From positions 124,001 through 188,000 of the forward strand of contig NZ_FNVS01000004.1 of assembly GCF_900108035.1 (NCBI RefSeq): a stretch of 64,000 bases of DNA, in the 5' to 3' direction. Of this stretch, positions 34,107-51,380 are shown piece after piece. The notes under the pieces are model-generated. The model worked only from the letters and a program-made list of their open reading frames with translations. It was not told the DNA's origin and did no database searches. Each line of letters begins with the position of its first letter. Position 1 is the stretch's first letter. Origin of the DNA: Parabacteroides chinchillae (GTDB taxonomy: Bacteria > Bacteroidota > Bacteroidia > Bacteroidales > Tannerellaceae). Both the position numbers and the translations under genes were made by a program.

Positions 34107-34160
34107 AAATACACCCTCAATTTTACAACTTAGTATATAAGATTCTCACGAACCCTTATC

Positions 34161-34505: not shown

Positions 34506-34589
34506 ATCCCACAATTTTTTACATGCATATTAGTACTACAAATATATTTTCTTTGTCTGCCAGTTAAAGTAGGTAATTACATCAATTTT

Positions 34590-36062
34590 CTAGTTAAAAC
34601 TATCAAATAGTACATTATCATCCCGTTTTTTCTGCAATTCTATCAAATTAGCATCCGCTTCTTTCACACCGGCGGCTTTTGCCTGCTTCAACAGGATTTC
34701 GGCCTCATCCAAATTACCTTGCATCAGGTTCAAAACACCACGTGAATGAATGGCTTCCGGCGAATTAGCGGCTTTTTTCAAATAGCCTTGTGCAACATCG
34801 AAATCTCCTTTTGTCAAAGCAATATTTGCAGCATTCAGATTGGCTACCGGATCATTCGGATAAATACATACAGCTATATCAAATACTTCATTATACTCTT
34901 TACTACCGGTTTCATAGCTATTAGCCACTGCAAACATTTCACTCAGGCTTAATTGCTTCGGATTCGTTTTAATCACTTCACGTCCTTCTTCCACAGTAAA
35001 GAAACGAACCGTATAATCCACTTTATAATCCGAGCGACGAAGTGAAGGATAAATATTCTGCAAGACATAGCGATAAGGAACGCCACCATCAAGTGCCATC
35101 AATTGCGCATCTTTTTTATCAGGATCGATATTGCTTTCGATAATAGCCAGCACTTTATCCCGTGAAGGAACAGACTGATCCGCCAGTACCTTTTCACGGA
35201 AACCGCCCCAATCCTCAGAACCATTTTCTGTCAGGATTATCCCTTTTGGGAAATCATGCTTTTTACGGACATATTCGGCCAAAGCTTTTACACGATTTTC
35301 TGCCAATACCGTATTCGATTTATAAGAACCTTCCGGTGAAGCATATCCTTTAAGGACAATATCTCTCAATTTTACATTTTTATCGTTCACAATCACACCG
35401 ATTGAATTATCGATTTTAGACAATTCTGTAGCATTATTACGAAAGTCCGGCAAAATCTGGTATTTGTTTACAACAAACTCCAAGTAAGCTGTACCCACTT
35501 CTGCCCGATGTTTTTCAGTTTCTGCCACCGGTGAAATATAAACCAGCGTAGTAGCCACCTGATAACGCTCATCAGGACGCATACGAACTTTATCGGCAAC
35601 CAACAACGGAGTACCCGGTGTTTCTTTACCACAACCACACAAATCCTGGTCCAAAACCAGTTTGGCATTTTTCATCCAAGGTTCAAAGGGTATATCCAAT
35701 TTATAATTAACCTGCTGCATTCCATCAGAAACCTTCAACACCGTATAACGAGGTTCATCTTGTAAATTATGCAAAGCAATTTCACGGTTATATACCTTCT
35801 GGCGGTTTTTGCCATTAATCAAAACAGAAGGTAAACCATTCTTTTGCGTAGAACTTTCAAGAACAGGAGTTAATGTCAGCGAATTCCTAGACTTTACCAC
35901 ATCTGCAGGAATCATAATAACCGCATCGATATAAAGCCGTCCACCTTTTTCCACCAAATCGTTACAAACAACCTTCACCGGCGAACCAACCGTCTGAGCC
36001 ATAGCCAGCGGTGAACCCAAAGCCAGCAAGATTACCAGCATACATATATTTATCTTTTTCAT
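34590..36062 (-). CDS. DUF3868/OmpA-like pilus-locus accessory protein
   Basis: Envelope protein of 490 residues with a signal peptide ending LAMAQ. An N-terminal DUF3868-type region of about 200 residues is followed by an OmpA-like segment (LKGYASPEGSYKSNTVLAENRVKALAEYV, near 240-270) that could bind peptidoglycan. A C-terminal helical part (about 380-475) resembles TPR-type repeats (NLNAANIALTKGDFDVAQGYLKKAA). Proteins of this type accompany fimbrillin operons in Bacteroidales, but their job is not settled. It starts 7 bp after the DUF3575 gene and is the last gene of the locus. Confidence 0.75.
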   Translation of the reverse strand: MKKINICMLVILLALGSPLAMAQTVGSPVKVVCNDLVEKGGRLYIDAVIMIPADVVKSRNSLTLTPVLESSTQKNGLPSVLINGKNRQKVYNREIALHNLQDEPRYTVLKVSDGMQQVNYKLDIPFEPWMKNAKLVLDQDLCGCGKETPGTPLLVADKVRMRPDERYQVATTLVYISPVAETEKHRAEVGTAYLEFVVNKYQILPDFRNNATELSKIDNSIGVIVNDKNVKLRDIVLKGYASPEGSYKSNTVLAENRVKALAEYVRKKHDFPKGIILTENGSEDWGGFREKVLADQSVPSRDKVLAIIESNIDPDKKDAQLMALDGGVPYRYVLQNIYPSLRRSDYKVDYTVRFFTVEEGREVIKTNPKQLSLSEMFAVANSYETGSKEYNEVFDIAVCIYPNDPVANLNAANIALTKGDFDVAQGYLKKAANSPEAIHSRGVLNLMQGNLDEAEILLKQAKAAGVKEADANLIELQKKRDDNVLFDSFN

Positions 36063-36069
36063 CGCTTCG

Positions 36070-36627
36070 TTATTTAATAAAGTAAATAATAGAAACAGCC
36101 GCTTTTGTCACACCAAAATAATCACGTGTTTCAGCAGGCAACTTATTTCCGCAGGTAGCACAAGGATATTCATTATCTTTCATGTGCGCCCAACCAAGAC
36201 CCAAAGCAGCTTCAATGCTCCATCTATTACTCAAAACCCATTGATAACCATAAGTCAAACCTGCACCATACAAATATCCCTGATAACGGCGGTTTTTCAG
36301 ACGATCACCCAAAAGGCTAAATCCACCCACATTATAATCTGCATAATGTGCATGTAAACCAAAGAAATGGCCATTGAATTTCTCACATAACCAGTAACGT
36401 GCTTCAGGTTGCACCATCCAATGCTTCCACCTGGCCTGGTCACCCATCATCCAGCCATTATAGTTGCCGGATATGTCAAGAGACCATTTTTTACCCAGCC
36501 CTATTTCCGCTCCCAAATTTATAGTAGCCGTAGCGTCATAGAGCAAGTTCGATTTCACTGCAAACTTCTGTCCGTATGCGCTCGACATACCAACTAGAAG
36601 GAGAAAGAGGAAAAGGACTTTTTTCAT
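36070..36627 (-). CDS. DUF3575 outer-membrane barrel-like protein
   Basis: Exported protein of 185 residues with a signal peptide ending AYGQ. It has alternating strands and aromatic girdles (FAVKSNLLYDATATINLGAEIGL, WSIEAALGLGWAHM) and a final aromatic strand, as in 8-stranded barrels. DUF3575 proteins are regularly found in pilus loci of this order; whether they anchor, export or stabilise the pilus is unknown. It lies 69 bp after the tip gene and 7 bp before the DUF3868 gene. Confidence 0.8.
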   Translation of the reverse strand: MKKVLFLFLLLVGMSSAYGQKFAVKSNLLYDATATINLGAEIGLGKKWSLDISGNYNGWMMGDQARWKHWMVQPEARYWLCEKFNGHFFGLHAHYADYNVGGFSLLGDRLKNRRYQGYLYGAGLTYGYQWVLSNRWSIEAALGLGWAHMKDNEYPCATCGNKLPAETRDYFGVTKAAVSIIYFIK

Positions 36628-36696
36628 ATATCTTTTGTTTATATTTTCCAGATTAAAACCAAAACTACAACAAGGTTATTTAAAGCATTGCGTACG

Positions 36697-39447
36697 TTAT
36701 TCAACACAATCACGAACACAACGCACAAATCCATATCTTGTATCGGTAGTACGGGTAATTCCTAAACCACCTTCGCTAAAGAAGAAGCCTTCGCATGTAC
36801 GTCCTAAATAATCTTTACCTGAATTATTTTTACCGGAGAATTTTGTACGGGCTACATAATTCATATAATTCCCGCTTGTTCCCTTTGATATATCCAGCGC
36901 TCTCACTAACAAAGTAAGTTCCCGCTGATTCGGAATACGCCAACCTTTCGGACACCCTCCTTGTTCTTCTGTTTTTGGTATATAATTAGGTGATACTCCG
37001 TTTACATCACTCCATTTTCCACCTGTCTTATTTTCATTATAAATCAAAAAGGATTTGTATGGCTTTGTGTTTTCAGAAAGTTCAGTGTGCATAGCCAATT
37101 GATTACCACCATCAGAAGAACTGCGAAGTGCCTTCTTATCCATATATCTCAATTCCAACTTATCATAATTTTCTCCATTATAAATCTTTTTACTCTTAGA
37201 CCAAATTTGAATTTTACTATCGTCCGGTTTATCAATCCGGCCTAAATAACGTGCACAACGGACAGAATGCCGATGCCGTTTCTCATATTCAGCATAGTCA
37301 CTCGTAGAAATGCCTTCTTCCGCCCATAATATATTTCTGAAATTTTCCGCTTCGGCACCTTTGCTATTTGCATAATAATGTAGTGTATTCTCACTATTAG
37401 CCGGAAAAAGGATAGCCGCCGGGTCATACGCATCTTGTCCCATAACGAAATCCTGGTATTGAGACAAAGATGGTAAAAACCACTTTATTTCATTTTCCTT
37501 AACCTGATCGGAAATATTTCCCATATTTCTGTTACGAGACATACATGCATTATATGCCTTTGTATAATTACTCAAATTTCCTGATAAATAAGGAACACTG
37601 TTCCAGTTGGGCCACCGAACTTCCGAATGAGATAATACAGTCAATTCCCTTATCATATTAGCACGCCCATCCGTTGTTTGCCCCCAACCATAAGGATTTC
37701 CATAAGAATATTTTCCGTTACCATTGTTACTAACAGCAAATTTTTCAAACATATCCGTCTCATTCACCCACTCTATTCCAATTGCATATTCAGAAGTACC
37801 ATCTGTCGAATAATAAGTTTGAATAGAACGTTGTGAAATAACATAGGCTGCATCCGTAAGCGAACTACTATTAACACTATCAGAATAAAACTTTGTTTTA
37901 CAAAGAATCAACATCTCACGATTCGGTTTATTCGCAAATTCCCACCAATTCAAATTATCATAATAATATTCATCAACAAATGCAGTGACAACAAGTTTAT
38001 TATTTGTATATGAATCTTCATTCTTCAATTTTTCAACTAATTGTTTAATAGTAAGTAAAGAGGAAGATCCGTCTCCCGGATAATTAGCTTTTTGGGTATC
38101 ATTATCATTATTTACTACAAAATGTATCCAGTTATCATCCAAGTCTGCAGAATTATCGTCCGGCCCTAACACCTGAAAATCATTTACCGGAGTCTTAACT
38201 TTGTATGTAGGTTTCCATTTTGCATCAGTTCCTATTATATCTGCTTTTGTAAAAGTCAGTACCCTTGCTTCATAATGAGCATCACACAATTGAATCGGCT
38301 GAGTAGCCTCCGTATAAATAAAATTACCATCCGCTACCGATGTCGGTTCCTTCTTAACAACTTCCAATACAATATCATTAATTCCCTTCACTTTAACATT
38401 ATATGTATACCGGGTATTACGTATTGTTTTGTAATCCTCTAAATTTGAAGCAGAAGAACCGCCATAGCTAGCTTCGCCAAGAGGAATATAATAAGTAACG
38501 TCTCCCTCAACTTGTGAAGTAGAAGGCTTTTTGCCCGGATCAAAATCTTGATATTTATCAGCAGGCCCTTTATAATATCCTTTCAAGATAATATAAGTGG
38601 CATTCTCCGGCTTTTTACTATACCGCTCTTTATACGAAATAGATTCAGACAAAGTCTTGCGGTTTTCCATCATATAAAACGTGAAACCTTTCTGTCCCAC
38701 AGCAAAAGGATATTCCTGAGCAGAAAAATAAGAAATATCTCCATTAAAGTCCTCTTCACGTTCAAACAAATAGCACTTGTCCGGTATTTCTGCAACCTGC
38801 CATGTCTGAGGCGTAAAGGAACCATTACCAGGAATCTTCGATACTATTTGAAAAGAAACAGAGGCTACTACACGATGTAACCAAATCTTACCGGCGAGTG
38901 TTTTTGCTGTCGAAGAAATCGATACGCTCCCCATGGTGTTTCCTTCTGAAGCGACAGAATCATCATAAATACCGGCCATCAAGAACTTACCATCAATCAA
39001 GTCGATAGCCTGCTGTGATAAATCGGCTGTAGCCGACAGAAACTGTTCCTTTGTAATACAGTCTTTTAATTTCGCAGCTAATTTGGTATAATTTGCAGAT
39101 TCCAAATTGGCTACAGCATAAATATAATTTGTACCGGACAAGGTTTTAAATCCTGTTAATACACCTTCACCTGTAGCATCCAGACTAAAAGATTGATATC
39201 CGATGCGATCGCCTGAAGTATTAAAGGCAAATACCGTAATATCAGATACACGATCAGCATATTGATCCTGATTTTCCCCCGTTGCACGTGTTATCACCTC
39301 CGGCGTATTCGGCATGAACGATAAACTTAACGTAACAGGAATCCCTTCTTCATACGTCTCGCCCTTTTCCACCAGAGCATCCTCATTACAGGAAACAATA
39401 AAATATCCTCCGATAATCAATAGTACTATGTATATATATTGTTTCAT
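36697..39447 (-). CDS. Large pilus tip-type lipoprotein (DUF4906-like)
   Basis: Lipoprotein of 916 residues with Cys20 in the lipobox IVSC and Arg54 in VITRA, the likely protease-processing site. The first 350 residues have the fimbrillin N-terminal domain (SDITVFAFNTSGDRIGYQSF, YIYAVANL). The C-terminal 150 residues contain GGCPKGWRIPNQRELTLL and GFVRCVRD, a domain found at the end of large tip or adhesin proteins of such loci. It therefore probably caps the fibre and binds a ligand. It follows the pilin at 39466 by 18 bp. Confidence 0.75.
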   Translation of the reverse strand: MKQYIYIVLLIIGGYFIVSCNEDALVEKGETYEEGIPVTLSLSFMPNTPEVITRATGENQDQYADRVSDITVFAFNTSGDRIGYQSFSLDATGEGVLTGFKTLSGTNYIYAVANLESANYTKLAAKLKDCITKEQFLSATADLSQQAIDLIDGKFLMAGIYDDSVASEGNTMGSVSISSTAKTLAGKIWLHRVVASVSFQIVSKIPGNGSFTPQTWQVAEIPDKCYLFEREEDFNGDISYFSAQEYPFAVGQKGFTFYMMENRKTLSESISYKERYSKKPENATYIILKGYYKGPADKYQDFDPGKKPSTSQVEGDVTYYIPLGEASYGGSSASNLEDYKTIRNTRYTYNVKVKGINDIVLEVVKKEPTSVADGNFIYTEATQPIQLCDAHYEARVLTFTKADIIGTDAKWKPTYKVKTPVNDFQVLGPDDNSADLDDNWIHFVVNNDNDTQKANYPGDGSSSLLTIKQLVEKLKNEDSYTNNKLVVTAFVDEYYYDNLNWWEFANKPNREMLILCKTKFYSDSVNSSSLTDAAYVISQRSIQTYYSTDGTSEYAIGIEWVNETDMFEKFAVSNNGNGKYSYGNPYGWGQTTDGRANMIRELTVLSHSEVRWPNWNSVPYLSGNLSNYTKAYNACMSRNRNMGNISDQVKENEIKWFLPSLSQYQDFVMGQDAYDPAAILFPANSENTLHYYANSKGAEAENFRNILWAEEGISTSDYAEYEKRHRHSVRCARYLGRIDKPDDSKIQIWSKSKKIYNGENYDKLELRYMDKKALRSSSDGGNQLAMHTELSENTKPYKSFLIYNENKTGGKWSDVNGVSPNYIPKTEEQGGCPKGWRIPNQRELTLLVRALDISKGTSGNYMNYVARTKFSGKNNSGKDYLGRTCEGFFFSEGGLGITRTTDTRYGFVRCVRDCVE

Positions 39448-39465
39448 AAACCAATATTTTTCTTA

Positions 39466-40476
39466 TTAATTAAATTCTATATTTGTATTGACAGAAGGCC
39501 GCCAGCTACTGACTTTCCAATTTATGTTCATCTCTGCTTTATCGCTTACCGTCACTTTCACTTGCAAACCATATTTCTTACCGGCTACAACACCATAAGG
39601 CTCCATTATTCCATCTTGCTTGATTTTGAATGTCGAAGTTTTTTCCTCTTTACCATCTATCTTATAAGTTATTTCCAAAGCCGTTGCATTTAAACCGGTT
39701 TCTTTATTTGCAAATGTGAGGAACGCCTTATCTGGCAAGACATTCCCTCCATCAATTGCAGCAATCTTATTATCAATAATAGAAAGGTTATATTCTAAAG
39801 CTTTGTAAGTTGCAATGTTTTTCAAATACCCGCTCTGATTTGCATGCAATAGCCTGCAACTTTTCAATTCTACTTTTTTCACACGTGTCTTAAATTCATC
39901 AGAAACGCCTTCCGCATAAACGGCTTCAAAAGAACTGAATTCCACGCACGAAGTAACCTGGTCGACCTTAATTGTTACCTCCTCTGTAGGATATTCACCA
40001 CCTTGATATTTATCCGGAGTACTGGATACACCTTCTACAGTAAATTCAACAGCCTGAGGCTCTCCATTTACTTTAATCATAGCATCCAAGTCTTTCTTGC
40101 TTAGTTCAACGCTTCTCAACCCACTTAAAGTGGACTGTTCTTTCAATGCAGCGGTTGTTGCCTGAGAAGCATTTGCTATGGCAAGTACAGTCAAGTTTTT
40201 TCTTACTTTGGTAAGAACCTTACTATCATTATCTGCCCATCCAATAATATTATTACCTTCCAATAGAAAGTAGACAACAGAATTAATTGTTATTTCTGCC
40301 TGGGCTGCTCTTGCTTGCACTCCTCCTATATTAAAAGATACATAAGCCATTTTATCGCCGGTTACTATCCCTGGAGTTTCAGTTTTATCCATATCGTTTA
40401 ATACATCATCCTCGGATGTACAAGCAAACAGGATAACAGCCATAAAAAAGATAGTAAATATTGTTTTTAGTTTCAT
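39466..40476 (-). CDS. Fimbrillin-like lipoprotein (accessory pilin)
   Basis: From the ATG at 40476 it is 336 residues with lipobox LFACT (Cys19) and Arg56 in VQARA. It keeps the fimbrillin plan: MAYVSFNIGG, LTVLAIANASQ in the first domain and a final strand region with NINWKVSSW. Pilin-superfamily proteins are lipoproteins cut after an Arg by a trypsin-like protease, which exposes the donor-strand groove. An earlier in-frame ATG at 40497 is possible. It has its own promoter at 40517 and precedes the tip gene. Confidence 0.75.
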   Translation of the reverse strand: MKLKTIFTIFFMAVILFACTSEDDVLNDMDKTETPGIVTGDKMAYVSFNIGGVQARAAQAEITINSVVYFLLEGNNIIGWADNDSKVLTKVRKNLTVLAIANASQATTAALKEQSTLSGLRSVELSKKDLDAMIKVNGEPQAVEFTVEGVSSTPDKYQGGEYPTEEVTIKVDQVTSCVEFSSFEAVYAEGVSDEFKTRVKKVELKSCRLLHANQSGYLKNIATYKALEYNLSIIDNKIAAIDGGNVLPDKAFLTFANKETGLNATALEITYKIDGKEEKTSTFKIKQDGIMEPYGVVAGKKYGLQVKVTVSDKAEMNINWKVSSWRPSVNTNIEFN

Positions 40477-40516
40477 AACCCTATTATTTATATGCATTTC
40501 ATTTTCTTTTCTGTCA

Positions 40517-40602
40517 CAAAAGTAGAGCTATTATATAGGCATGGCTATAGGCGAAACTTTCAAGATTAATAGGTAAAAATAGCATACCGGCAGATTGATA
40601 GG
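40517..40602 (-). promoter_or_regulatory. Pilin promoter B with shared upstream motifs
   Basis: Minus-strand -7 box TACTTTTG (40517-40524). Upstream, CCTAT lies with exactly 22 bp between it and the box (40547-40551), TTTACCTATTAAT comes next (CCTAT at 40569-40573, 22 bp further) and CCTATCAATC at 40598-40602 and before. Another CCTAT is at 40535-40539. The same spaced set is found before the genes at 45534 and 46945. Confidence 0.65.
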
Positions 40603-40665
40603 CACACCCTTTAGATACGATAGAAACACCGTTTTTAAGATTAGGTACGGCCTGTATATATAAAA

Positions 40666-40708
40666 CAAATCATCCCGATGTTTTTTCAAAAACATCGGGA
40701 TGATTTTA
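40666..40708 (-). terminator. Terminator inside the pilus locus
   Basis: Near-perfect hairpin around ATCATCCCGATG / CATCGGGATGAT with A and T runs on both sides, 29 bp after the stop at 40737. It separates two pilin transcription units. Confidence 0.85.
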
Positions 40709-40736
40709 TAAAATGATCGGGGAGAAATTTTTATTA

Positions 40737-41999
40737 TCAATTTGCATCATTCTCTGCCTGATCTACAATTTGCCATAGATAGGCAACAACCGCTGCACTT
40801 ACATAAGCATTCATTTCTATATTATCCTCATCTCTGGAACCTTCACCCGTAATAATAACTTCTATCCGATACACATGATTAGGCTTTACTTTTATTGGCT
40901 CATCATTGTCTTTCAGGAGAACGCGGAAATGTCTTTCTTCTTCTATTCCTGCATTTTTAAAAAATCCGGAGATAACCAATGCTGTTTCACATACATTTAC
41001 ATTATCTCCTTTCTCAGGATTAGCAAACGTATATCTGAAAAATTTATCAATAGCAGAATTATCTGTCCAATCACCAACCAGTCCTTTTGTATAACCGGTA
41101 GTATATTTCTTATACAAAGCAGGAACCACTTCAGAGCCGGGTTGTATCCAACCAGCCCGGTCTCCAGGTTTAAGTTTGTCAAACATGGCAGATTCATATC
41201 CTTTATAATAAACATAGCTTGGGTTGTTTATAGAATTTATAGACGAAACGCTACGGGCATTTGCCAACCACAGTCCTGTTAATTTAAACTCCGCATTCTT
41301 ATATGTTTCTTCTTGAAAACTTACGGTTATTTTATCTACCTGAATACGGGCAACTAAACGATTTAAAGCTATTGTTCCTGCAGCCTGCTGAGTTGTTTCC
41401 GTATAAACGAAAGCGGATGTAGACGATTTAATCCAGTTTTCATTTCTAGTAGTCTGCGTCGTTCCATTTTCTGTCTTTTTCACTGTAGGACGCACGCCTG
41501 TGAATTGGATTGTATCGCTTGCCATAGGCAAAACGTCTCCTATCTGGTATTGGTCGCAACTTTTTGTAACAACAACCGTATTAAAGTCGTCCATACTATA
41601 GATAGAAGCAACATTATCTGTGGCATTCGCAACCAATACAGCATAGAATTTATCATTTGTAGCACCTCCTTTTTCATCTACCGGGGTAACTTTTATAAGT
41701 ATATCTTTGATCTCGGATATACCATTCTGGTTCGTCTCATCTTGATAAGCTACACGTTTTCTGGTAGCAGCGTCAAATATAAGGGCTGTCAGACGAGTTA
41801 TTTTCGTTTCATTGTTCAAATTTTGTTCACCCTTGTCATCCGTTATGGATCTTGTCTGGGTATTCGATTTTGCAACAAACGATATATATGCATCCACCGG
41901 TTCCTTCGGTATATTATTATCAATAATATCGTCTTCGTTAGAGCAAGCGCCAAAAGCAATTAATGCCATAAGCGAGAAAAATAAATATCGTAGTTTCAT
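40737..41999 (-). CDS. Fimbrillin (FimA/Mfa1-type pilin)
   Basis: 420-residue lipoprotein with lipobox FGACS (Cys19) and Arg50 in TQTRS, the expected cleavage site of the mature pilin. The order of blocks is that of Bacteroidales type V pilins: ITRLTALIFDAATRKRVAYQ, FYAVLVANATDN, a second-domain strand TIALNRLVARIQVDKI and the C-terminal VVAYLWQIVDQAEN that would act as donor strand. It follows the gene at 42047 by 47 bp and is followed by a terminator, so it ends the anchor-containing unit. Confidence 0.82.
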   Translation of the reverse strand: MKLRYLFFSLMALIAFGACSNEDDIIDNNIPKEPVDAYISFVAKSNTQTRSITDDKGEQNLNNETKITRLTALIFDAATRKRVAYQDETNQNGISEIKDILIKVTPVDEKGGATNDKFYAVLVANATDNVASIYSMDDFNTVVVTKSCDQYQIGDVLPMASDTIQFTGVRPTVKKTENGTTQTTRNENWIKSSTSAFVYTETTQQAAGTIALNRLVARIQVDKITVSFQEETYKNAEFKLTGLWLANARSVSSINSINNPSYVYYKGYESAMFDKLKPGDRAGWIQPGSEVVPALYKKYTTGYTKGLVGDWTDNSAIDKFFRYTFANPEKGDNVNVCETALVISGFFKNAGIEEERHFRVLLKDNDEPIKVKPNHVYRIEVIITGEGSRDEDNIEMNAYVSAAVVAYLWQIVDQAENDAN

Positions 42000-42046
42000 A
42001 AATTATTGATTAAAATGTTTGTATTCTTTTTTACCCTTATATTGAA

Positions 42047-43150
42047 TTATTCATAAGAAGCCTCCTGGCGAATATTCCCCCAATTTGCAATAGATACGAC
42101 ACAGTCGAGCGTGATATCCACCGGAGTTGAAGGTATTGGAGGTGTAGGATATTGATCGCCGTCAAAACTATTTTTACCAAATGTAATGCCTATCTGGTAA
42201 ACATAATTTCTCTTTATATAATTATGATTATATCCTCTATCCTTGCCATTCTCATTAATTGTAACGAAAAATTGTTTTCTTTCAGACAGATAACCGCCTG
42301 AGGCCTGCAATGTTGCATCTATCACCAACTGAGTAGCATTTTCACTTGCTCCGTTTTCCATTACATAAGCATAATAAGAAGTATCGGTTATAGGTGTTTC
42401 TGCATTTACTGTCCTATTTAGAGTATTCCGGGCAACTTCGTCTGACAAATAACCAGGTATCTCAACCATTCCCCAATCTGCAGCACTGAAGTAACGGGAA
42501 GCTGTTTTTACTTTTGACAACCAAATATTATTCACCCTAACCGTACGCCCGGACAGTATCGAACCGGAGAAATTAGTACGGATACTCGCCACATCTATAC
42601 GGGCTGCAACACGCGTCAACAGGATCGGATCGTTCAAGCCGCCGACATTAGCCTGCGAAGTACCATACCCAATATAATTATCATCCGTATTCGATAGTAT
42701 AACAGAAATCAGCCGGCTACTCATTGTCAGGTTATTTTGCAATTGCGATGACAATTCTACTATTTTGTTTTCAAATGCAGTATAGTTATTTACATCCTCA
42801 AAGGAACCTTGAGGAACATTTGCAACAATGGCAATCTGTACATTACCGGTCTGCATCTCAACATCAGTGATTTCAGCAGTTCCATCGGCCCCAACTGTAG
42901 ACTGCCACTTAGAGCCTAACACTTGAGTACCATTTTCATTAAATATGATAGCAGTCAAATTATTAATTGCAGCTTCACCCGGCAGTTCATTCTTATCAGC
43001 AGCCCGCGTAGCTAAACCTCCTATCGCTTCTACTTTGACCGATATACGCCCTGTTTTTCCTGCTTGCGGTATTTCTGTTTCGTCATTTTTAGAACAAGAA
43101 GCGAAAGCTTGCAAAACAAAGAATATCAGTATTATATTTTTCAATTTCAT
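42047..43150 (-). CDS. Fimbrillin (FimA/Mfa1-type pilin)
   Basis: From the ATG at 43150 it is 367 residues, with lipobox FASCS (Cys19) and Arg49 in LATRA. The N-terminal domain has INNLTAIIFNENGTQVLGSK and QIAIVANVPQG; the second domain has PILLTRVAARIDVASI; the end is LDCVVSIANWGNIRQEASYE, a normal pilin tail. A TTG ten codons upstream is in frame but unlikely. It begins 32 bp after the FimB-type gene. Confidence 0.82.
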   Translation of the reverse strand: MKLKNIILIFFVLQAFASCSKNDETEIPQAGKTGRISVKVEAIGGLATRAADKNELPGEAAINNLTAIIFNENGTQVLGSKWQSTVGADGTAEITDVEMQTGNVQIAIVANVPQGSFEDVNNYTAFENKIVELSSQLQNNLTMSSRLISVILSNTDDNYIGYGTSQANVGGLNDPILLTRVAARIDVASIRTNFSGSILSGRTVRVNNIWLSKVKTASRYFSAADWGMVEIPGYLSDEVARNTLNRTVNAETPITDTSYYAYVMENGASENATQLVIDATLQASGGYLSERKQFFVTINENGKDRGYNHNYIKRNYVYQIGITFGKNSFDGDQYPTPPIPSTPVDITLDCVVSIANWGNIRQEASYE

Positions 43151-43182
43151 ATCGTGATAATTTTCGAATTTATTTAACAAGA

Positions 43183-44145
43183 TCAGAGCTCATGTTCTTC
43201 CTTCACCACACCCCAGGGACGTACACTAACTTTAACACCGGAAATCAATCCGTCTTCACCAAACTGAATCAGTACGTATTTTAACTGTCCGGGTTCGACA
43301 GTAATCGGATCATCTATCTGATCAGACTCTTTACGTCCAAGCAACTGCTTGTTAAGATTCAATGTCACATCCATTTTTTCACCGGGACAAAGACGATGGT
43401 TTTTAGGCGTGTACCATTCTTTACCAATCGTACTCGTACCCCAATCTCCCGCAGGATTATAATAGACACTATCACCAATAGTCTCTCCTTTATAATTATA
43501 TGAATCCAGGGTACGATTCAAATAGAAATTACACATCGGATCATCTGCTTTCAAGGTACGGGCATTAATAGCATATTGCAAACCTTCTGTCTCAATATGA
43601 ATCTCTCCCGTACGCGGTCTGACCACAATTGTATCATTTACAGTAATACCATCTCCTACCGAAGCACGAATCACTTCCAGCGAACCAAAATAAAGGTCGT
43701 CTGCCGAAGTTGCCATATCGGTTTTAGATGCATCTTCGGGATCTGTCGTACGGTTTATTGTCACTTTCAGATCAACGGCAGTCTTTAAACTTTTCGTAAC
43801 AGTTGTCTTATCGGCATCATCTATATTTCCCCAAGCAACAACCGTCAATTTTGCATCGGCAGAATAACCGTTCAGAACAATCTCCCGGCGTCCGGCAATA
43901 AAGTCCTGGTCAAGTGTGCGCGTTTCCAAATAATTGCCTTTTTCATCGAAAATGAACAGAGAGGCATTAGGCACGTCCCCCGGAACAGCCTCCGTAATGT
44001 CATCCCCTTCCGCATTGACAACCTTCAATGTCAATTTATAGCCCGGGCACGGATCAAGATCATCATAAATACTACAACCGGCCAGTAATATCGATATACA
44101 AAATGCAAAAAGCAACCGCCTGTTTATAACTGAAATATATTTCAT
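43183..44145 (-). CDS. FimB/Mfa2-type pilus anchor lipoprotein
   Basis: 320 residues, lipobox LAGCS (Cys24). It has the Mfa2 pattern with DPCPGYKLTLKVVNAEG, NASLFIFDEKGNYLETRTL, KLTVVAWGN and the end GVKVSVRPWGVV. Unlike the six pilins around it, no Arg cleavage site of the TRA type is seen at residues 49-56, as expected for an anchor that stays lipidated. Such proteins end fibre growth and hold it at the outer membrane. It lies between two pilin genes (33-bp and 32-bp gaps). Confidence 0.83.
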   Translation of the reverse strand: MKYISVINRRLLFAFCISILLAGCSIYDDLDPCPGYKLTLKVVNAEGDDITEAVPGDVPNASLFIFDEKGNYLETRTLDQDFIAGRREIVLNGYSADAKLTVVAWGNIDDADKTTVTKSLKTAVDLKVTINRTTDPEDASKTDMATSADDLYFGSLEVIRASVGDGITVNDTIVVRPRTGEIHIETEGLQYAINARTLKADDPMCNFYLNRTLDSYNYKGETIGDSVYYNPAGDWGTSTIGKEWYTPKNHRLCPGEKMDVTLNLNKQLLGRKESDQIDDPITVEPGQLKYVLIQFGEDGLISGVKVSVRPWGVVKEEHEL

Positions 44146-44178
44146 AATAATTTATTTTCCTTCTATATTTATATTACT

Positions 44179-45534
44179 TTAGTCTACCTCCGTACCACTC
44201 ATATCTACAATTTTCCAATTGCTAACCTTAACGGCAACACTTGCATAAGCATCTTGCAGCAAATCGAATGGCTTATCCGAGCCTGGTCCACGAATTATCA
44301 TATTGATTGTATAAAACTTATTTCGTTTTATATATGAATGTTCTATATCCGAGTAGTTTTCAACTTTACCGGTTTTGTTCACAATCAAAGTATAGTAGTA
44401 GTCATTTGAAACCTGCATACCTATCTTTTTATCTTTATAAGAAAGCCTGGCCTTCACAACCATAAGTGTAGGCATTTCTCCATCTTGATTTTCATAAACA
44501 TAAAACATACGTCCAAGCGGAAATCCTCCACCCACAGAAATATGACCGCCATCTTTTTTGCTTGGGTCCAGAACTTCATTGATTGGCAAAAACGCAAAAT
44601 ATCTATTTCGGAAACAAAGATCTACATTCGGTAAAAAATCTTTATATGTCTGATCGCTATTTATAAAATCATACCATAGCAGACTTTCATTCACACTATT
44701 CGCAAACTTCTTCATATTTCCGGTTTCATCTTTTACTGCCGGGTTACCACACCAAAACTGCAAAGGGATTTGATTCTTGTCTGTTTCTGTTTTAATTTCC
44801 AAAGCTCCACACGCATTTTCAGCTTCCATATAAGACGAATTCTTCACATTCGCCAGAAAAAGGGACAAAGGCATTAATGTTGCATTTTCGCTATATTCAT
44901 CTTTAGGTTCAAACCGAAGATTAGACAATTGTACCCGGGCTAATGCACGGTATAAAGGAATACCTGCATTTTTATCACCATCAACCCCGATTTTATTTTC
45001 CACATCAGCAAGGAGAGTAGTACTGATCACTCCGCTCGTCATTACAATATTTCCATTCAGCTCCCGATCCAAATGGAGAGTATCACCCATAAAAGCATCC
45101 AACGTTTTCAGGCCTTCAAATTTTAATACTGGCACATTTGCAAATACCAACAATTTCACTTTACCTGATTTTACAGGAATCTGTCCTAAACTTGTTACAC
45201 CTCCTTTTTCTGAGGTCACATCCAAAGAGTGCTTCAAAACAATCAGTTCACCGGAAACCATATCCGGATAAGCTCCATCATTAAACACTGCAACTGTCAA
45301 TGAATTTATATATCCCTCTGTATTTTTCACATCAACAATATCTCCCAAGCTTGATCCCGGATCAATCTCGGCCCGGGTTTGGAAAGCTCTTGTTTGAGCA
45401 GATTCATCCTTTACGGCTATCGATAGTGTTGCATCCGGAATATGTTTAACTTCTTCCTGTATTTTATCATCGCCCGAACAAGAGGAAAACAGTCCGCAAA
45501 TTGATAAGAATAATAGAAAAATATCCAGTTTCAT
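44179..45534 (-). CDS. Fimbrillin-like lipoprotein (pilin)
   Basis: From the ATG at 45534 it is 451 residues. The lipobox is FSSCS (Cys19) and two candidate Arg sites occur (Arg49 in AQTRA, Arg54 in FQTRA). The pilin blocks INSLTVAVFNDGAYPD, KLLVFANVPV, PLYRALARVQLSNL and the C-terminal YASVAVKVSNWKIVDMSG are present. The frame is open 52 codons further upstream, but that part covers the promoter and lacks a signal peptide. Promoter A at 45577 leads this unit, which also holds the anchor and two more pilins. Confidence 0.8.
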   Translation of the reverse strand: MKLDIFLLFLSICGLFSSCSGDDKIQEEVKHIPDATLSIAVKDESAQTRAFQTRAEIDPGSSLGDIVDVKNTEGYINSLTVAVFNDGAYPDMVSGELIVLKHSLDVTSEKGGVTSLGQIPVKSGKVKLLVFANVPVLKFEGLKTLDAFMGDTLHLDRELNGNIVMTSGVISTTLLADVENKIGVDGDKNAGIPLYRALARVQLSNLRFEPKDEYSENATLMPLSLFLANVKNSSYMEAENACGALEIKTETDKNQIPLQFWCGNPAVKDETGNMKKFANSVNESLLWYDFINSDQTYKDFLPNVDLCFRNRYFAFLPINEVLDPSKKDGGHISVGGGFPLGRMFYVYENQDGEMPTLMVVKARLSYKDKKIGMQVSNDYYYTLIVNKTGKVENYSDIEHSYIKRNKFYTINMIIRGPGSDKPFDLLQDAYASVAVKVSNWKIVDMSGTEVD

Positions 45535-45576
45535 TTGATATATTTTATACATGTTATCTACTTCATTTTTACGATA

Positions 45577-45663
45577 CAAAGATAAGATGCCCACAAGAGG
45601 TTGCAGATAGGTGGCTCTCTCTATATTAATAGGTAAATCCATCAACTTTTTCCGATTGATAGG
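45577..45663 (-). promoter_or_regulatory. Pilin promoter A with shared upstream motifs
   Basis: Minus-strand -7 box TATCTTTG (45577-45584). CCTAT with exactly 22 bp between it and the box (45607-45611), TTTACCTATTAAT with CCTAT at 45629-45633, and CCTATCAATC with CCTAT at 45659-45663. Spacings match promoter B to within 1 bp. Confidence 0.65.
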
Positions 45664-45701
45664 ATTGCCTGCATAATGCAATGTTTGCAATGCTTTACCA
45701 C

Positions 45702-45740
45702 AAAAAAAGATCCCCCGGAAATTTTACTATCCGGGGGATC
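45702..45740 (-). terminator. Terminator after the first pilin
   Basis: GATCCCCCGG and CCGGGGGATC form a strong hairpin followed on the minus strand by TTTTTTT, 24 bp after the stop at 45764. Confidence 0.9.
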
Positions 45741-45763
45741 TCTCACTATATTAATATACTACC

Positions 45764-46945
45764 TTATTCAAATTCGGCAGTTTGTTCGATTATTCCATAA
45801 GGAGCTACTTTTACGAAGCAATCAAGTGTAGCTGCTACCGGATCCGGGTCAGGAGTGTTGCTACCTGTGCCTGATAATGTCAAATCGATCTGATAACGCA
45901 TATTGCGATCAATTTTACCAGTTCCTTTGCTTGAATCGGAACCTGAAGAAAATGTACCCGTCTCATTCACAATAATCGTATAGCATCTGTTAGCTAAAGT
46001 CTTCTCAACACCATTTGCAGTTGTATACTTAACAGTACCTTTAACAATCAACCAAGTCTTATTATTTGTATTCTGATTTGCATATACATAGAATGAATCT
46101 GCCACAGCAAAAGCAGAGCCTTGAGACTGTATGTCCGTAATTACATTGCTTGAAGTATAAGGTTGAGCATAGTAAGCCAACGGATCTGCATCCCCTTTAG
46201 AACCTGAATAAAATCCGGTTGTTGTATAATAGGTAGAACCTTTAGCCTCCGTTCCTGCACCAATCAATAAAGTTTGTTTCGGAGCATTTTTCAAATAAAC
46301 ACTATCCAATGTAAATGTAGCATTTTTATATGCAACAGGATCTTTCATTTTTAATGAAATTGTATTTACTACCACCTTCGCTACATTACGATACAAAGTA
46401 ATATCAACGGAACCTACTTTATTATAACCTCCAATTGAGCTTGCCGCATACAAGTTTGGACCTGTAATTAAAGAGCCGGTTGTTATAACTTCGCTACTCA
46501 TAGTCAAACCTGCACTAGTTGCAACTTCAGAAACATCACTACCGTCTACAAGGTTCTGAGTTACCGTCTGAAACTCTCCGATTGTTGATTTTCCATTGAA
46601 ATCAGCAGCTCGTTTATTTGCAATAGCCAACACTTTATAGGTATTACCGGAAATCAAACTATTAACAGTAGGAGTACGTCTGATTGCACCGTTACTGGCT
46701 GTTGTATCCTTAACAGCAACAAGACTTCCGTCTGTATTAAAAACGGCAACAACTAACGAGTTGATTTGATCTTCTGTACTGGTCTCGGCAATAGCTCTTG
46801 TTTGAGTACTCGAACTAATCCCAATTACCAAAGAAGCATTCCCTTTATCCGGAGTCGGATTTACACCAATAACATCATCTTCCTTAGAACAAGAAGCGAG
46901 AATACATGCAATGACAGATGCATAAAGCAAATTTCTCATTTTCAT
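45764..46945 (-). CDS. Fimbrillin, likely major pilin
   Basis: 393 residues with lipobox LASCS (Cys19) and Arg50 in TQTRA. It is rich in Ser, Thr and Ala as major pilins often are. The blocks are INSLVVAVFNTDGSLV, YKVLAIANKRA, DITLYRNVAKVVVNTI and the tail LDCFVKVAPYGIIEQTAEFE. It has its own promoter (47084) and a strong terminator, which fits a subunit made in excess over those in the next unit. It is the first gene after the regulator at 47297. Calling it major is an inference from position and the separate transcript. Confidence 0.82.
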   Translation of the reverse strand: MKMRNLLYASVIACILASCSKEDDVIGVNPTPDKGNASLVIGISSSTQTRAIAETSTEDQINSLVVAVFNTDGSLVAVKDTTASNGAIRRTPTVNSLISGNTYKVLAIANKRAADFNGKSTIGEFQTVTQNLVDGSDVSEVATSAGLTMSSEVITTGSLITGPNLYAASSIGGYNKVGSVDITLYRNVAKVVVNTISLKMKDPVAYKNATFTLDSVYLKNAPKQTLLIGAGTEAKGSTYYTTTGFYSGSKGDADPLAYYAQPYTSSNVITDIQSQGSAFAVADSFYVYANQNTNNKTWLIVKGTVKYTTANGVEKTLANRCYTIIVNETGTFSSGSDSSKGTGKIDRNMRYQIDLTLSGTGSNTPDPDPVAATLDCFVKVAPYGIIEQTAEFE

Positions 46946-47043
46946 AATTTTAATTATTAATTTTGTGAATATTATTTTTATTTTCCTTTACTATATTATT
47001 ACGTACAATAATAACTGCAGCTTTTAGAACCTTAGCGGAACTT

Positions 47044-47058
47044 TGTATACCCTATACA
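47044..47058 (-). other. 5' leader hairpin with GGG loop
   Basis: Minus strand TGTATA-GGG-TATACA, a perfect 6-bp stem with a 3-base loop, 26 nt downstream of the -7 box of promoter C, inside the leader of the first pilin. A longer pairing GAACCT/AAGGTTC encloses it. Confidence 0.55.
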
Positions 47059-47083
47059 GGTTCGTTGTTTAAGTTTTACGATG

Positions 47084-47180
47084 CAAATGTATATTCCCCT
47101 CAAAAAACAACAGATAGAAAAATGTATCAATTAATATCGGTAAAAAAGTCAACCCGTTTTTTATCAGCACTTTGATAGAA
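47084..47180 (-). promoter_or_regulatory. Pilin promoter C with shared upstream motifs
   Basis: Minus-strand -7 box TACATTTG (47084-47091) and a TTTTTTG run near -33. TCTATCTG begins with the same 22-bp spacing to the box (CTAT ending at 47114), and TTTACC lies 26 bp above it, as in promoters A and B. A TCTATCAAAG site near 47175 is about 10 bp, one helical turn, further up than in A and B. The leader is about 130 nt. Confidence 0.65.
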
Positions 47181-47236
47181 ACACACTGTAAAAAGAGAGA
47201 AAATACAAGATTTATTTACAGGGCAGGCTAAAAATA

Positions 47237-47270
47237 AAAAACCTCTCCAATTTAAATTGGAGAGGTTTTT
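47237..47270 (-). terminator. Terminator of the hybrid regulator
   Basis: Perfect 34-bp palindrome with arms AAAAACCTCTCCAATTT and its complement, 26 bp after the regulator stop. Confidence 0.9.
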
Positions 47271-47296
47271 AAAATATGATTTTATTTGATACCGAT

Positions 47297-49162
47297 TTAT
47301 ACAGGCACACCATACTGGGAAGGGGTTACACCGTATTGTTCCGTAAAACGCTTACGGAAAGTAGCCGTATCATTAAATCCAACCATCTCTGCCACCTCTT
47401 GCACAGAATATTGTTGGGTAAGAAGAAGTTCTGCCGCTTTTTTAAGACGGACAGTCCGGGTTAACTCTAAAATACTACAATCCGAATATTGTTTTATTTT
47501 ACGGTATAATGTTGGCAGGCTCATATTCAATGAGTCTGCCAACACCTTTGCCTCAAAGGTGGAATCATCCAAGTGTTGTTCTATATTTTTCATTACTGCA
47601 TCCATAAACGGGTTGGAATTCTTACTATTTGAAGAAGATATATCAACGGTATCCTCTTCGCCGGAATTAACTCCTGCCGAACCGGCAAAATATTGCCAAA
47701 GTTCTTCACGGCGTTTCAATAATCCGTTTATTTTGGTACGAAGTATTTCTATATCAAAAGGCTTTGTAATATAATCGTCTGCCCCCGCTTCTATACCAAC
47801 AACAATATCTTCACTTTCCACTTTAGCCGTCAGCATAACAACAGGTATCTGAGCAGTACGGCTATCACTCTTAAGTTCGCGGCAAGTTTTTATACCATCT
47901 TTTACAGGCATCATTACATCACAAAGAATCAAATCCGGTAATTCCCTGAAAGCCACTTCAAGGCCTTCTTCTCCATTCCGGGCTTCCAGTATCTGATATT
48001 CTTTATTAAATATGTGTTTAAGAAACCAACGTATCTGATCGCTATCATCAATAATCAGCAATTTCTTTCCCATCGTAATTTTCTTTTGCGAAATAATCCG
48101 GATCAGATTTGCAATCTCTTCTTTTTGATCTTCATTCAATTTAACCAAATCAGCCTCCGGTTCAACAAATTCCACCCGTCTTTCGAGCAAATGTTGTTTC
48201 CCTAATGGTAGATATAATGTATAAGAGGTTCCATTATTATTAAGTTCGCGTTTATAAATCCCCCCTATATCATTCACCATATCAATAATCTGTTTCAAAC
48301 CACGACGAGCAGTTTCGTTTTCATCCAAACCTTCATCTTGAACAGATAAAGCACAATAAGCTTTCTTATCCTTACGAACAACAGAAATATCCAGAATAAC
48401 TTTTCCATAGCTAAAGGTATTTTTAAATGCATTTGTCAACAAAGTACGCAACGCATATTCAAACTTACGGCGGTCTAGCCAAAGCCACAGCATATCTGTC
48501 TGGGTATTAACTCTGAAATCTATATTATTCATAGCAACCCAATCCACAAACAAATCACAAATCTGACGAGACATATCGACCATATCATATCGGGCAATAC
48601 GCAAATAATTAGCTACATCATTATTAAAACGCGTTCCTACTAACTGATCCGCCAAATCTTGCAGAGCCAGCGTATTACGATAAGCAGAAAGTAGTTGAGT
48701 AGACATTTCTTCTCCCGGATTTTTATTTTGGACAATTAAGGCCAGAGAGCCTAATACCAAAGATAACGGAGTTCGCATCTCATGAACCGTTTCGACGAAG
48801 AAGGTATCTTGTATATTTTCGGCATCTTTTACAAGTTGGTTTGCTATTTCTTCTTTTTCGGTAACTTCACGCAACATGGCATCATTCTCTTTTATCTTGG
48901 CAACAAGCATTTGTTCCAACTCACGCTTATTACCCGACAAAGTAGAAATGGAAATTTCCTGTTGTTTCAGCTTTTCCTGTAATTCATTATTGATCGTTTT
49001 CAAACTCGCATTATCGCCTTCTTGTTCTGCAACTTTCATTTTCAATTTTTCATAATCAGACTGCATCTGCATAAAAATACTGACAGATGATTTTTGCCTG
49101 AATACATATATAAACAGGGTTAATGAAAATAAAGCCAACAAAATAATTAGAGTAACTTCCAT
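47297..49162 (-). CDS. Membrane-anchored hybrid regulator (degenerate histidine kinase, receiver, AraC HTH)
   Basis: 621 residues. Order: one TM helix (2-21), a coiled coil (about 27-118), a HisKA dimer with His127 in VHEMRTPLS, an ATPase-like part with N box TNAFKN (near 243-248), a receiver with IDDSDQ (371-376), phosphoacceptor Asp415 and the TKPF lysine, and an AraC helix-turn-helix (about 515-620). There is no large periplasmic sensor as in usual hybrid two-component systems. The ATPase lid is shortened: only DEGLD stands for the G1 box and no F box or normal G2 box follows. Its place between pilin operons and the divergent anchor gene suggests it controls them. Confidence 0.85.
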   Translation of the reverse strand: MEVTLIILLALFSLTLFIYVFRQKSSVSIFMQMQSDYEKLKMKVAEQEGDNASLKTINNELQEKLKQQEISISTLSGNKRELEQMLVAKIKENDAMLREVTEKEEIANQLVKDAENIQDTFFVETVHEMRTPLSLVLGSLALIVQNKNPGEEMSTQLLSAYRNTLALQDLADQLVGTRFNNDVANYLRIARYDMVDMSRQICDLFVDWVAMNNIDFRVNTQTDMLWLWLDRRKFEYALRTLLTNAFKNTFSYGKVILDISVVRKDKKAYCALSVQDEGLDENETARRGLKQIIDMVNDIGGIYKRELNNNGTSYTLYLPLGKQHLLERRVEFVEPEADLVKLNEDQKEEIANLIRIISQKKITMGKKLLIIDDSDQIRWFLKHIFNKEYQILEARNGEEGLEVAFRELPDLILCDVMMPVKDGIKTCRELKSDSRTAQIPVVMLTAKVESEDIVVGIEAGADDYITKPFDIEILRTKINGLLKRREELWQYFAGSAGVNSGEEDTVDISSSNSKNSNPFMDAVMKNIEQHLDDSTFEAKVLADSLNMSLPTLYRKIKQYSDCSILELTRTVRLKKAAELLLTQQYSVQEVAEMVGFNDTATFRKRFTEQYGVTPSQYGVPV

Positions 49163-49512
49163 AAGAGTTAAAATTGGTTGTAATTACAGTTTTCAATATC
49201 TCAAAATATCGTTCTTATTTTTAAGATACTACATATACAAAGGTCTAAATAAAAATTCATATCAGAAAGTAAATTAAAAGAAAGTTTTGCTATCAAATAA
49301 TCTTTATTTAATAACAAAAATATTCAACTGCAAATAATTGGATCACCACCTAATGCTATAGATACAAAATAAAACGAACACGCATGATTTTGACATGAAT
49401 ACACCCATATAGACACGTTTAGCACCTATTTTGAAACAATCACAACACATAAAACGCCATTAAACGACTCATTTAACATGTTTTATATTGTATTTTTTAA
49501 AATATCCCCAGT
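49163..49512. other. Gap between regulator and divergent anchor gene
   Basis: AT-rich stretch with no gene. It should hold the regulator promoter on the minus strand, but no exact TAnnTTTG was found at a sensible distance. CACCTATTTTG near 49421 resembles one half-site of the pilin promoters, without the partner sites. Confidence 0.4.
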
Positions 49513-49548
49513 TTATATTTGGAAGGATAGAAATAGTATCTACATTTG
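49513..49548 (+). promoter_or_regulatory. Two -7 boxes before the anchor-like gene
   Basis: TATATTTG at 49513-49520 and TACATTTG at 49541-49548, both exact TAnnTTTG matches on the plus strand. The 28-bp offset suggests alternative starts, each placing both leader hairpins in the transcript. Confidence 0.6.
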
Positions 49549-49569
49549 CAGCATAACGAGGCAAGAAAA

Positions 49570-49626
49570 CCGGATGAGGGTCCGGAATTCAAAGGAAGAC
49601 AAAAAGAATGAGGGTTCTTCTTCCTT
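49570..49626 (+). other. Tandem leader hairpins with identical TGAGGG loops
   Basis: Hairpin 1: CCGGA-TGAGGG-TCCGG (49570-49585). Hairpin 2: AAGGAAG and CTTCCTT (49592-49598, 49620-49626) enclose a 5-nt bulge and AAGAA-TGAGGG-TTCTT (49604-49619). Both loops are TGAGGG closed by A-T, although the stems differ, so the loop appears to be what is kept. Confidence 0.7.
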
Positions 49627-49667
49627 ATACAAGTTAAAATTTAATGCATATAAAAAATTCAAAGGTT

Positions 49668-50600
49668 ATGAAAAAAAACGGCATTTCTGCAAGCACTTTT
49701 TTTGCAATTACGTTATCATTTGTTATGATATTTTCATTCAATGCATGTTCTTCTGACAGTGAAGATGCTATAAGCAGTGGTATAAATGATACAAAATCAG
49801 AGCCTACATCCAATCCATATTCATTAGTAATTAAAACTTTAGCAAAAGGTCAAGATATTACAACAAAAGGCGCCGTTAAAAATGCGACCTTGTTTGTGTT
49901 TAATGAGAACAATGAATTTGTAAAACAGATCAACCTTGACAAATCAATTCTTTTACAACGCAAAGCAGTTTCTATAGATTGTCCGGATTCCGACCGGATC
50001 ACTGTCATTGCGTGGGGTGGTTTATCTGAAGGTGAAAATGTAGTCTCCCTGGATTCAGCAAACATTATTTCCGATTTAAAAATACAATTACAACAGAACA
50101 ATGGTGTTGTAACGGCTGCTCTCGGTGATTTATTCTATGGACAAATTACATTAAATCGTCCTGTAACCAAATCTTCTGACATTCAAACATTAAACATAGA
50201 GCGCAAAGTATCTTCTTTAGCAATCAATACAAAAGGAGTCAATAAAAAATATGGAACGACCGAAGGTTCTTATTATTACAAAGTAAAAAAATCCAAAAGT
50301 TCATTTAATTACAACGGAGAATTAACAGGTAATGAAGTTGAATATATTATTCCGGCCTATTTTAACGACAATAACGAGCTTGTTACAGAAACAACCCCAA
50401 TTTTGCCTGCCTATAATATCGTAATAGAGCTTTATAGAGACAATGAAATGATTTTTTCGAGTAAAAATGCAAAAAATGGCGAAATATCGTCAGCAAACGC
50501 AGGAGAACAGGTAAATGTAAATTTTAACATCACACTCAATAATTGTTCTATTAAAGTAACTCCCTGGAACACAATTATTCAAAATGTTACAGTAGGTTAA
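49668..50600 (+). CDS. FimB/Mfa2-like lipoprotein, divergent from the regulator
   Basis: From the ATG at 49668 it is 310 residues, lipobox FNACS (Cys27). It shows the Mfa2 order seen in the anchor at 43183: YSLVIKTLAKGQD, NATLFVFNENNEFVKQI, ITVIAWGGLSEG, GDLFYGQITL, and the end SIKVTPWNTIIQNV. No TRA-type site is seen. An upstream ATG at 49644 is in frame. It is a second anchor candidate for the locus, separately transcribed, with a structured leader and its own terminator. It is AT-rich compared with housekeeping genes here. Confidence 0.75.
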   Translation: MKKNGISASTFFAITLSFVMIFSFNACSSDSEDAISSGINDTKSEPTSNPYSLVIKTLAKGQDITTKGAVKNATLFVFNENNEFVKQINLDKSILLQRKAVSIDCPDSDRITVIAWGGLSEGENVVSLDSANIISDLKIQLQQNNGVVTAALGDLFYGQITLNRPVTKSSDIQTLNIERKVSSLAINTKGVNKKYGTTEGSYYYKVKKSKSSFNYNGELTGNEVEYIIPAYFNDNNELVTETTPILPAYNIVIELYRDNEMIFSSKNAKNGEISSANAGEQVNVNFNITLNNCSIKVTPWNTIIQNVTVG

Positions 50601-50634
50601 AAAAATAAGCATTCAATTTTTCATATGCATATCG

Positions 50635-50672
50635 GCGCACATTCGGATTATTCAGAATGCGCACTCTTTTTT
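50635..50672 (+). terminator. Terminator of the anchor-like gene
   Basis: GCGC and ATTC pair with GAAT and GCGC around a GGATTATTCA loop, then T8. The 40 nt at 50613-50653 recur at 51320-51359 with four differences. Confidence 0.75.
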
Positions 50673-50982
50673 TTCAAATATCCAAATCTTGGCAATAGGA
50701 ATACATATGTTTTTGATACTTTCGCATATGTAAATATTTGCTAATAAAAAAAACACATACATATACACTGATTGCAAATGTATCATATTGATACGAATAC
50801 ATACCAATATATATTTCCACCCTATAACAGGTAATACTATCAATGAGTGCAAAAATATCACCTGTGATTATTTTACACATATAAATAACACAGAATAAAA
50901 CACTGATAATACATTTGCATAGCAATATAATATGTTTAACATTTATTAATTATCACAATATACTTCATATAAAAAACTCCAT
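50673..50982. other. AT-rich gap, no gene seen
   Basis: Open frames here are short and unlike any protein I know. A TACATTTG box occurs near 50911-50918 on the plus strand. Confidence 0.4.
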
Positions 50983-50990
50983 TTATATTT
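50983..50990 (+). promoter_or_regulatory. -7 box of a possible non-coding transcript
   Basis: TATATTTG on the plus strand; the flanking CC-TTTATATTTG resembles the promoter at 49513. A transcript from about 50997 would run to the terminator at 51341. Confidence 0.5.
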
Positions 50991-50996
50991 GTAATG

Positions 50997-51380
50997 TTTA
51001 CGAGAGATTCTGAGTTTTAACAAGGGTTTATAACTCAATATGGATTTTTCTCGCAGAGTATAGGGTTTATTTTAAGCATATAAATAAAGGAATAGGAAAG
51101 GGTAAAATTTTCACAAATTGTTTTTGTTATAAAATATGCCTAATCCTTATTTGAGTTTATCAATAGTTAATGTGCTTTGAGAAAAGAAATTATCTGCTGT
51201 AAAATAAGAATATTCATATAATTTTTATTTTACGGAAGTTTTAATGTAGAACAAGTTTGCAAAGTAATTACAGACAACTTTACCAGATGTCTTTAATTTA
51301 CTAAACAAATATTGACCCTCAATTTTTTATATGCATATTGGCGCACATTCGGATTGTTCCGCGTGTGCGCTCTTTTTTTT
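50997..51380 (+). ncRNA. Candidate non-coding RNA or fossil transcription unit
   Basis: Between the promoter at 50983 and the terminator at 51341-51380 there is no convincing protein. The first 57 nt fold into CGAGA/TCTCG (51001-51005, 51049-51053) and GAGTT/AACTC (51012-51016, 51032-51036) with AAGGGT in the loop. A second AT hairpin TTTATTT/AAATAAA lies near 51065-51088. The terminator is a copy of that of the anchor-like gene. It could be a small RNA of the pilus locus or the shell of a lost gene. Confidence 0.35.

Follow-up and report, generated by a model that had tools for sequence, protein, structure and literature searches.

The window analysed here, a 64,000-nucleotide stretch of Parabacteroides chinchillae DNA, carries a cluster of lipoprotein genes with matches to PF06321, PF08842 and PF21489, which mark a Bacteroidales type V pilus locus. 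Its pilus genes are arranged in three units on the minus strand. The first holds the pilin gene pilA (45764..46945; Pfam matches PF06321 and FimA4_C). The second is headed by the pilin gene pilB (44179..45534; PF06321) and includes a Mfa2-family anchor gene (43183..44145), a Fim1C-like tip pilin gene (42047..43150) and a pilin/tip-type gene with a PF06321 match (40737..41999). The third is headed by a lipoprotein gene without a Pfam match (39466..40476, here p40476) and includes the gene of a 916-aa adhesin-like lipoprotein with weak FimA-type and FISUMP matches (36697..39447). A DUF3575-DUF3868 pair (34590-36627, minus strand) lies 70 bp behind this large adhesin gene. A candidate regulator of 621 aa, assigned by Pfam and alignment, is encoded at 47297..49162 (minus strand). 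It is adjoined by a divergent gene for a Mfa2-family anchor lipoprotein (49644-50600, plus strand), which stays there in most relatives and is a possible signalling partner of the regulator. RNA-based control of the locus was rejected, as positions 34000-51000 have no Rfam match.

The first genes of the three units are preceded on the minus strand by one promoter layout. Before pilA (gene 46945), half-site 1 is TTGACTTTTTTACCGAT (47136..47152), half-site 2 is TTGATACATTTTTCTAT (47114..47130) and the -7 box is TACATTTG (47084..47091), with TTTACC at 47144, TCTAT at 47118 and the box at 47091; an upstream element, TCTATCAAAG, lies at 47170..47179. Before gene 45534, the corresponding features are TTGATGGATTTACCTAT (45629..45645), TAGAGAGAGCCACCTAT (45607..45623), the box TATCTTTG (45577..45584) and the upstream element CCTATCAATC (45654..45663), with TTTACC at 45637, CCTAT at 45611 and the box at 45584. 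Before gene 40476 they are ATGCTATTTTTACCTAT (40569..40585), TTGAAAGTTTCGCCTAT (40547..40563) and the box TACTTTTG (40517..40524), with TTTACC at 40577, CCTAT at 40551 and the box at 40524. The upstream element of this promoter, again CCTATCAATC (40593..40602), is conserved among p40476-type promoters, and a second one, TCTATCGTAT (40615..40624), lies 22 bp above it. The spacings proposed in a sequence-only reading of this DNA were reproduced in full. The gap between (C/T)CTAT and TAnnTTTG is exactly 22 bp at all three promoters, TTTACC and (C/T)CTAT are 26 bp apart from start to start at all three, and TTTACCTATTAAT has the same letters at two of them. The upstream site lies 25 bp (40602) and 26 bp (45663) above TTTACC in two cases and 35 bp above it (47179) before gene 46945, about one helical turn further up. 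All three promoters have the TAnnTTTG -7 box of Bacteroidota sigma-A promoters. The distance from promoter to ATG is ~49-147 nt, the proposed gene starts are sensible, and each of the three first-gene proteins has a lipoprotein-type signal at its N-terminus.

For 26 aligned sites, which fall into four promoter classes, the consensus is TG-TA-TTTACC-AT-TAA--TTGA-AG----RCCTAT-N22-TAY-TTTG. The autocorrelation of the alignment columns has its maximum at 22 bp, a value equalled in none of 400 column shuffles. We read the core of the element as two 17-bp half-sites, TTGAnAG-N4-RCCTAT, in tandem direct repeat, placed 5 bp apart and thus with a 22-bp period. The TTGAnAG box of the first half-site is weak at some promoters (e.g. 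ATGCTAT before gene 40476). The bases between the boxes vary freely while their spacing is fixed, and neither the flanks nor the 22-bp gap are conserved. The Bacteroides promoter consensus comprises a -7 box, TAnnTTTG, and a -33 TTTG (PMC7366714). The -33 TTTG is absent in 26 of 26 sites, and the downstream end of the half-site pair takes its place, 22 bp above the -7 box. When half-site pairs with a 5-bp spacer were searched without the box, using only loci chosen by the regulator, the -7 box was found at exactly 22 bp in 22 of 24 pairs; one of the others has the box at 21 bp and one has no box. Counts of the spacing taken over every locus carry a bias, since the 22-bp pattern had itself been used to retrieve many of them. 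Further upstream there is a conserved CTATCAA element that is real but looser in position. In several pilB promoters and in most of the p40476 class it is 28-29 bp above the reference A; the distance is 38 bp in the window pilA promoter and in one promoter of a pilA-type gene from another genus (L040). Most p40476-type promoters have CTATCAA doubled, ~21-22 bp apart, and this doublet forms an upstream tandem pair in that promoter class. The earlier proposal of three half-sites is refined to a core of two 17-bp half-sites in place of three equal ones, CTATCAA being an extra, less regular site.

The two-part core, CTAT-N22-TAnnTTTG, has 23 matches in the genome against 20 for a reversed control; at this chance level it is worthless as evidence alone and was rejected as such. 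The three-part pattern, ACCKAT-N17-YCTAT-N22-TAnnTTTG, has three perfect matches in the 3.57-Mb genome, all at these promoters, and no one-mismatch matches in the whole genome; two-mismatch matches elsewhere number 10, against 2 for the reversed control. Since the pattern was fitted to these three sites, it is fairly judged only on sites outside that set. In regulator-bearing loci of other species, the window-derived pattern has 18 matches at <=2 mismatches, all preceding pilin-type lipoprotein genes; 15 lie inside 300-bp windows, where 0.8 are expected, and the other three precede pilin-type genes missed by the BLAST filter. The element is conserved out of sample at pilA, pilB, p40476 and DUF3575 promoters. 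Within the window no fourth copy precedes the DUF3575 gene (36627), though many relatives have one there. The upstream regions of the regulator gene and of the divergent mfa2-like gene (49644) also have no copy, so there is no autoregulatory signature, and autoregulation of the regulator was rejected.

The element is found together with the regulator across the family. Orthologues of the regulator in Parabacteroides species are 56-76% identical, and the usual order of the neighbourhood is regulator, pilA, pilB-mfa2-tip pilins, p40476-type lipoprotein and large adhesin, often with DUF3575-DUF3868. Within the genus, 13 of 39 genomes have the regulator; the element is present in 11 of these 13 and in 0 of the 26 regulator-negative genomes, the reversed pattern having 0 matches (Fisher 5e-8, overstated because related species are not independent and the regulator and pilus genes are linked). 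Among 125 genomes of the family, 20 have the regulator, 17 the element and 16 both, which places the element in 16/20 regulator-positive and 1/105 regulator-negative genomes (Fisher 1e-15, likewise overstated by shared ancestry and linkage). The single regulator-negative match (G045) has 3 mismatches and no pilin gene after it, and was treated as chance; the reversed pattern has three matches of this quality in the family. All assignable matches in regulator-positive genomes lie before type V pilin/adhesin operons or the DUF3575-DUF3868 operon, and the PF06321 pilins of regulator-negative genomes (e.g. G007, G016, G028, G032, G037) are without the element. Four regulator-positive genomes of the family have no element. 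G002 no longer has pilus genes next to its regulator, and G022, G073 and G074 are fragmented, incomplete or cut by contig ends. The G002 locus (L082, G002:C2:1749200-1769199) retains an intact 621-aa regulator, 72% identical to that of the window, in a genome without the element. As an orphan, this regulator provides a natural test case.

Because the regulator and pilus genes are linked, most of this co-occurrence could come from their being inherited together as one island. Two observations go beyond linkage. In G003, an element lies 1.1 Mb from the only regulator copy of the genome. The operon that it precedes encodes pilin-like lipoproteins of 368, 675 and 632 aa, and the surrounding 20 kb hold no regulator. 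The other observation is a second regulator subfamily, 57-58% identical, which two genomes carry alongside the first. Its pilin loci have half-sites of differing sequence, TTTAAAAATTACC/TGATAAATATACC, whereas the period and the 22-bp gap are unchanged, an indicative result as it comes from only four sites. Loci of this subfamily (L093, L094) have their own pilin cluster, and the second HTH of their regulators reads NDMATF, not NDTATF, a possible specificity change. In G072 the sites and the regulator lie on opposite strands. More distant relatives of the regulator in Bacteroides, 35-50% identical, were set aside as full-length HTCS or fragments next to housekeeping genes; they are not in pilus loci and have no element match. 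A mobile element of ~16-19 kb apparently lies between pilA and pilB in G003:C1 (L092, L127), where both promoters keep the element.

The 47297 protein consists of one N-terminal transmembrane segment, a coiled coil, a degenerate HisKA/ATPase region, a receiver and an AraC-type HTH, the AraC-type domain spanning about residues 515-621. Pfam matches Response_reg (2.3e-26) and HTH_18 (1.7e-20), places HisKA below cut-off and has no HATPase_c match in this protein. An HTCS combines a histidine kinase part, a receiver and, after the receiver, an AraC-type HTH in a single polypeptide, and this protein has that layout. The H-box HEMRTP, with its histidine, is retained; the ATP lid and the F/G2 region are deleted in all Parabacteroides-type orthologues aligned. 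Judged by its sequence, the protein lacks a functional kinase ATP-binding domain, and its kinase is probably degenerate. A periplasmic sensor is also absent: the 621 aa hold one transmembrane segment and a coiled coil, Bacteroides HTCS relatives have ~1,380 aa, and in orthologues there is nothing beyond a signal peptide and a short segment. In HTCS, a consensus receiver contact motif (S/CHIP) holds the DNA-binding domain inactive (PMC11253607). This motif reads AQIP here and SQTP, AQTP and similar in orthologues, with AHIP in L082 only. The best reading of the protein is that of a shortened, sensor-less HTCS/AraC relative. From the missing ATP lid we infer that little or no phosphorylation would be needed, and together with the off-consensus receiver motif this makes phosphorylation-independent action plausible.

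The DNA itself shows an element of rigid geometry that is confined to pilus genes and co-occurs with the regulator. From this we infer that the element is very probably the operator of a dedicated pilus regulon; the 47297-49162 protein would bind it as a tandem dimer and activate the regulon. The earlier proposal, that a single regulator reads one code of fixed spacing, withstood all computations run, on confinement, co-occurrence, unlinked operons and direct-repeat form. Two regulator monomers would occupy the tandem half-sites, 22 bp apart on the same helix face, and the proximal monomer, in the -33 region, would recruit polymerase to a promoter without a -33 element of its own. The downstream monomer would stand in the -33 place, always 22 bp above the -7 box, and this position alone suggests that the protein activates and does not repress, most likely through contact with RNA polymerase, as for AraC at I1-I2. 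The upstream CTATCAA copies may add affinity or tune strength. The predicted targets are pilA (46945), the pilB-mfa2-tip operon (45534) and the accessory lipoprotein/adhesin operon (40476), with the DUF3575-DUF3868 operon as a fourth target in relatives, and these units would rise and fall together.

Repression by the same protein, which would bind the half-sites and block polymerase until release or phosphorylation switches the pili on, is unlikely. The site does abut the -33 region, and an HTCS with atypical contacts between receiver and DNA-binding domain can repress (BT2391, PMC11253607), the receiver motif here being A/S-Q-I/T-P, not S/C-H-I-P. However, promoters without a -33 TTTG look activator-dependent, and a fixed 22-bp gap would suit polymerase contact better than steric blocking. 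It is quite improbable that the element, while pilus-specific, is bound by another transcription factor encoded elsewhere, with the 47297 protein a mere neighbour. The lack of an element copy before the regulator and the divergent mfa2-like gene would fit this reading, but 16 of 17 element-bearing genomes, from several genera, also carry a 47297-type regulator, the direct-repeat form suits an AraC/HTCS protein, and the diverged regulator subfamily has diverged half-sites in unchanged geometry. That the shared sequence is a relic of recent pilin promoter duplication, without regulatory meaning, is very hard to sustain: the pilins are paralogous within one cluster and TTTACCTATTAAT is identical at two promoters, but spacing is fixed over freely varying bases, the same columns are conserved over four promoter classes and several genera with neither flanks nor 22-bp gap retained, and DUF3575, which is no pilin gene, carries the element.

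Activation by a tandem dimer has a close parallel in AraC at E. coli araBAD I1-I2, where 17-bp direct-repeat half-sites lie two helical turns apart with the proximal one at the -35 equivalent. The window element likewise has 17-bp direct-repeat half-sites, with the proximal one at the -33 place. Unlike AraC, the system here has a Bacteroidota -33/-7 promoter, no sugar-binding domain and no looping evidence. HTCS share with the 47297 protein the combination of receiver, AraC-type DNA-binding domain and histidine-kinase-like part in one protein (PMC3878776, PMC11253607), and their genes also adjoin their targets. HTCS operators predicted by comparative genomics in Bacteroides polysaccharide utilisation loci are direct repeats of 12-16-bp sites averaging 21 bp apart (PMC3878776), whereas the units here are 17 bp with a 5-bp spacer and a period of 22. 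In contrast to HTCS, the 47297 protein has no periplasmic sensor and no ATP lid or G2 motif, and its receiver interface is off consensus. HTCS regulate glycan genes, whereas the targets here are pili in up to four dispersed units. It is possible, though doubtful, that an HTCS stripped of sensor and kinase activity has here turned into a membrane-anchored, phosphorylation-independent master activator, which would act on three to four dispersed units by way of a rigid tandem-repeat operator and take its input from the membrane or the Mfa2-like lipoprotein. If so, input from the divergent Mfa2-like anchor lipoprotein may couple pilus gene expression to assembly.

To our knowledge, what has been described of type V pilus control in gut Bacteroidales is largely limited to phase variation and, in an oral relative, the FimS/FimR system. 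In Porphyromonas gingivalis, FimS/FimR is described as binding and activating the mfa1 pilin promoter, with FimR binding independent of phosphorylation and fimA reached indirectly (PMC1974823). This system, too, is a two-component regulator acting on a type V pilus gene in the Bacteroidales. Its kinase and regulator, FimS and FimR, are two proteins, whereas the regulator here is a single hybrid chain, and the available part of that source mentions no direct-repeat site, whereas the window element is a direct repeat (PMC1974823). No paper on the present pilus circuit was found in the searched literature, which omits most subscription journals. The direct-repeat architecture of HTCS and AraC is known; what is apparently new is a pilus regulon with a stripped-down regulator. 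The two offer a concrete candidate operator, regulator and target list, shared by several genera within one family and directly testable, and would extend the HTCS/AraC scheme from glycan use to pili, raising the question of what a stripped-down regulator senses. In phase-variable Bacteroidales pilus loci, type V pilins are also controlled at their promoters (PMC12632263), but the window locus has no visible invertible promoter or recombinase. The same genome has a second pilin-type locus (L138, G000:C5:12000-26000), where the element has no match. It contains DUF3575, DUF3868-like and Mfa2-like genes and adhesins of 935 and 712 aa, lies downstream of a recombinase-like gene and may be phase variable.
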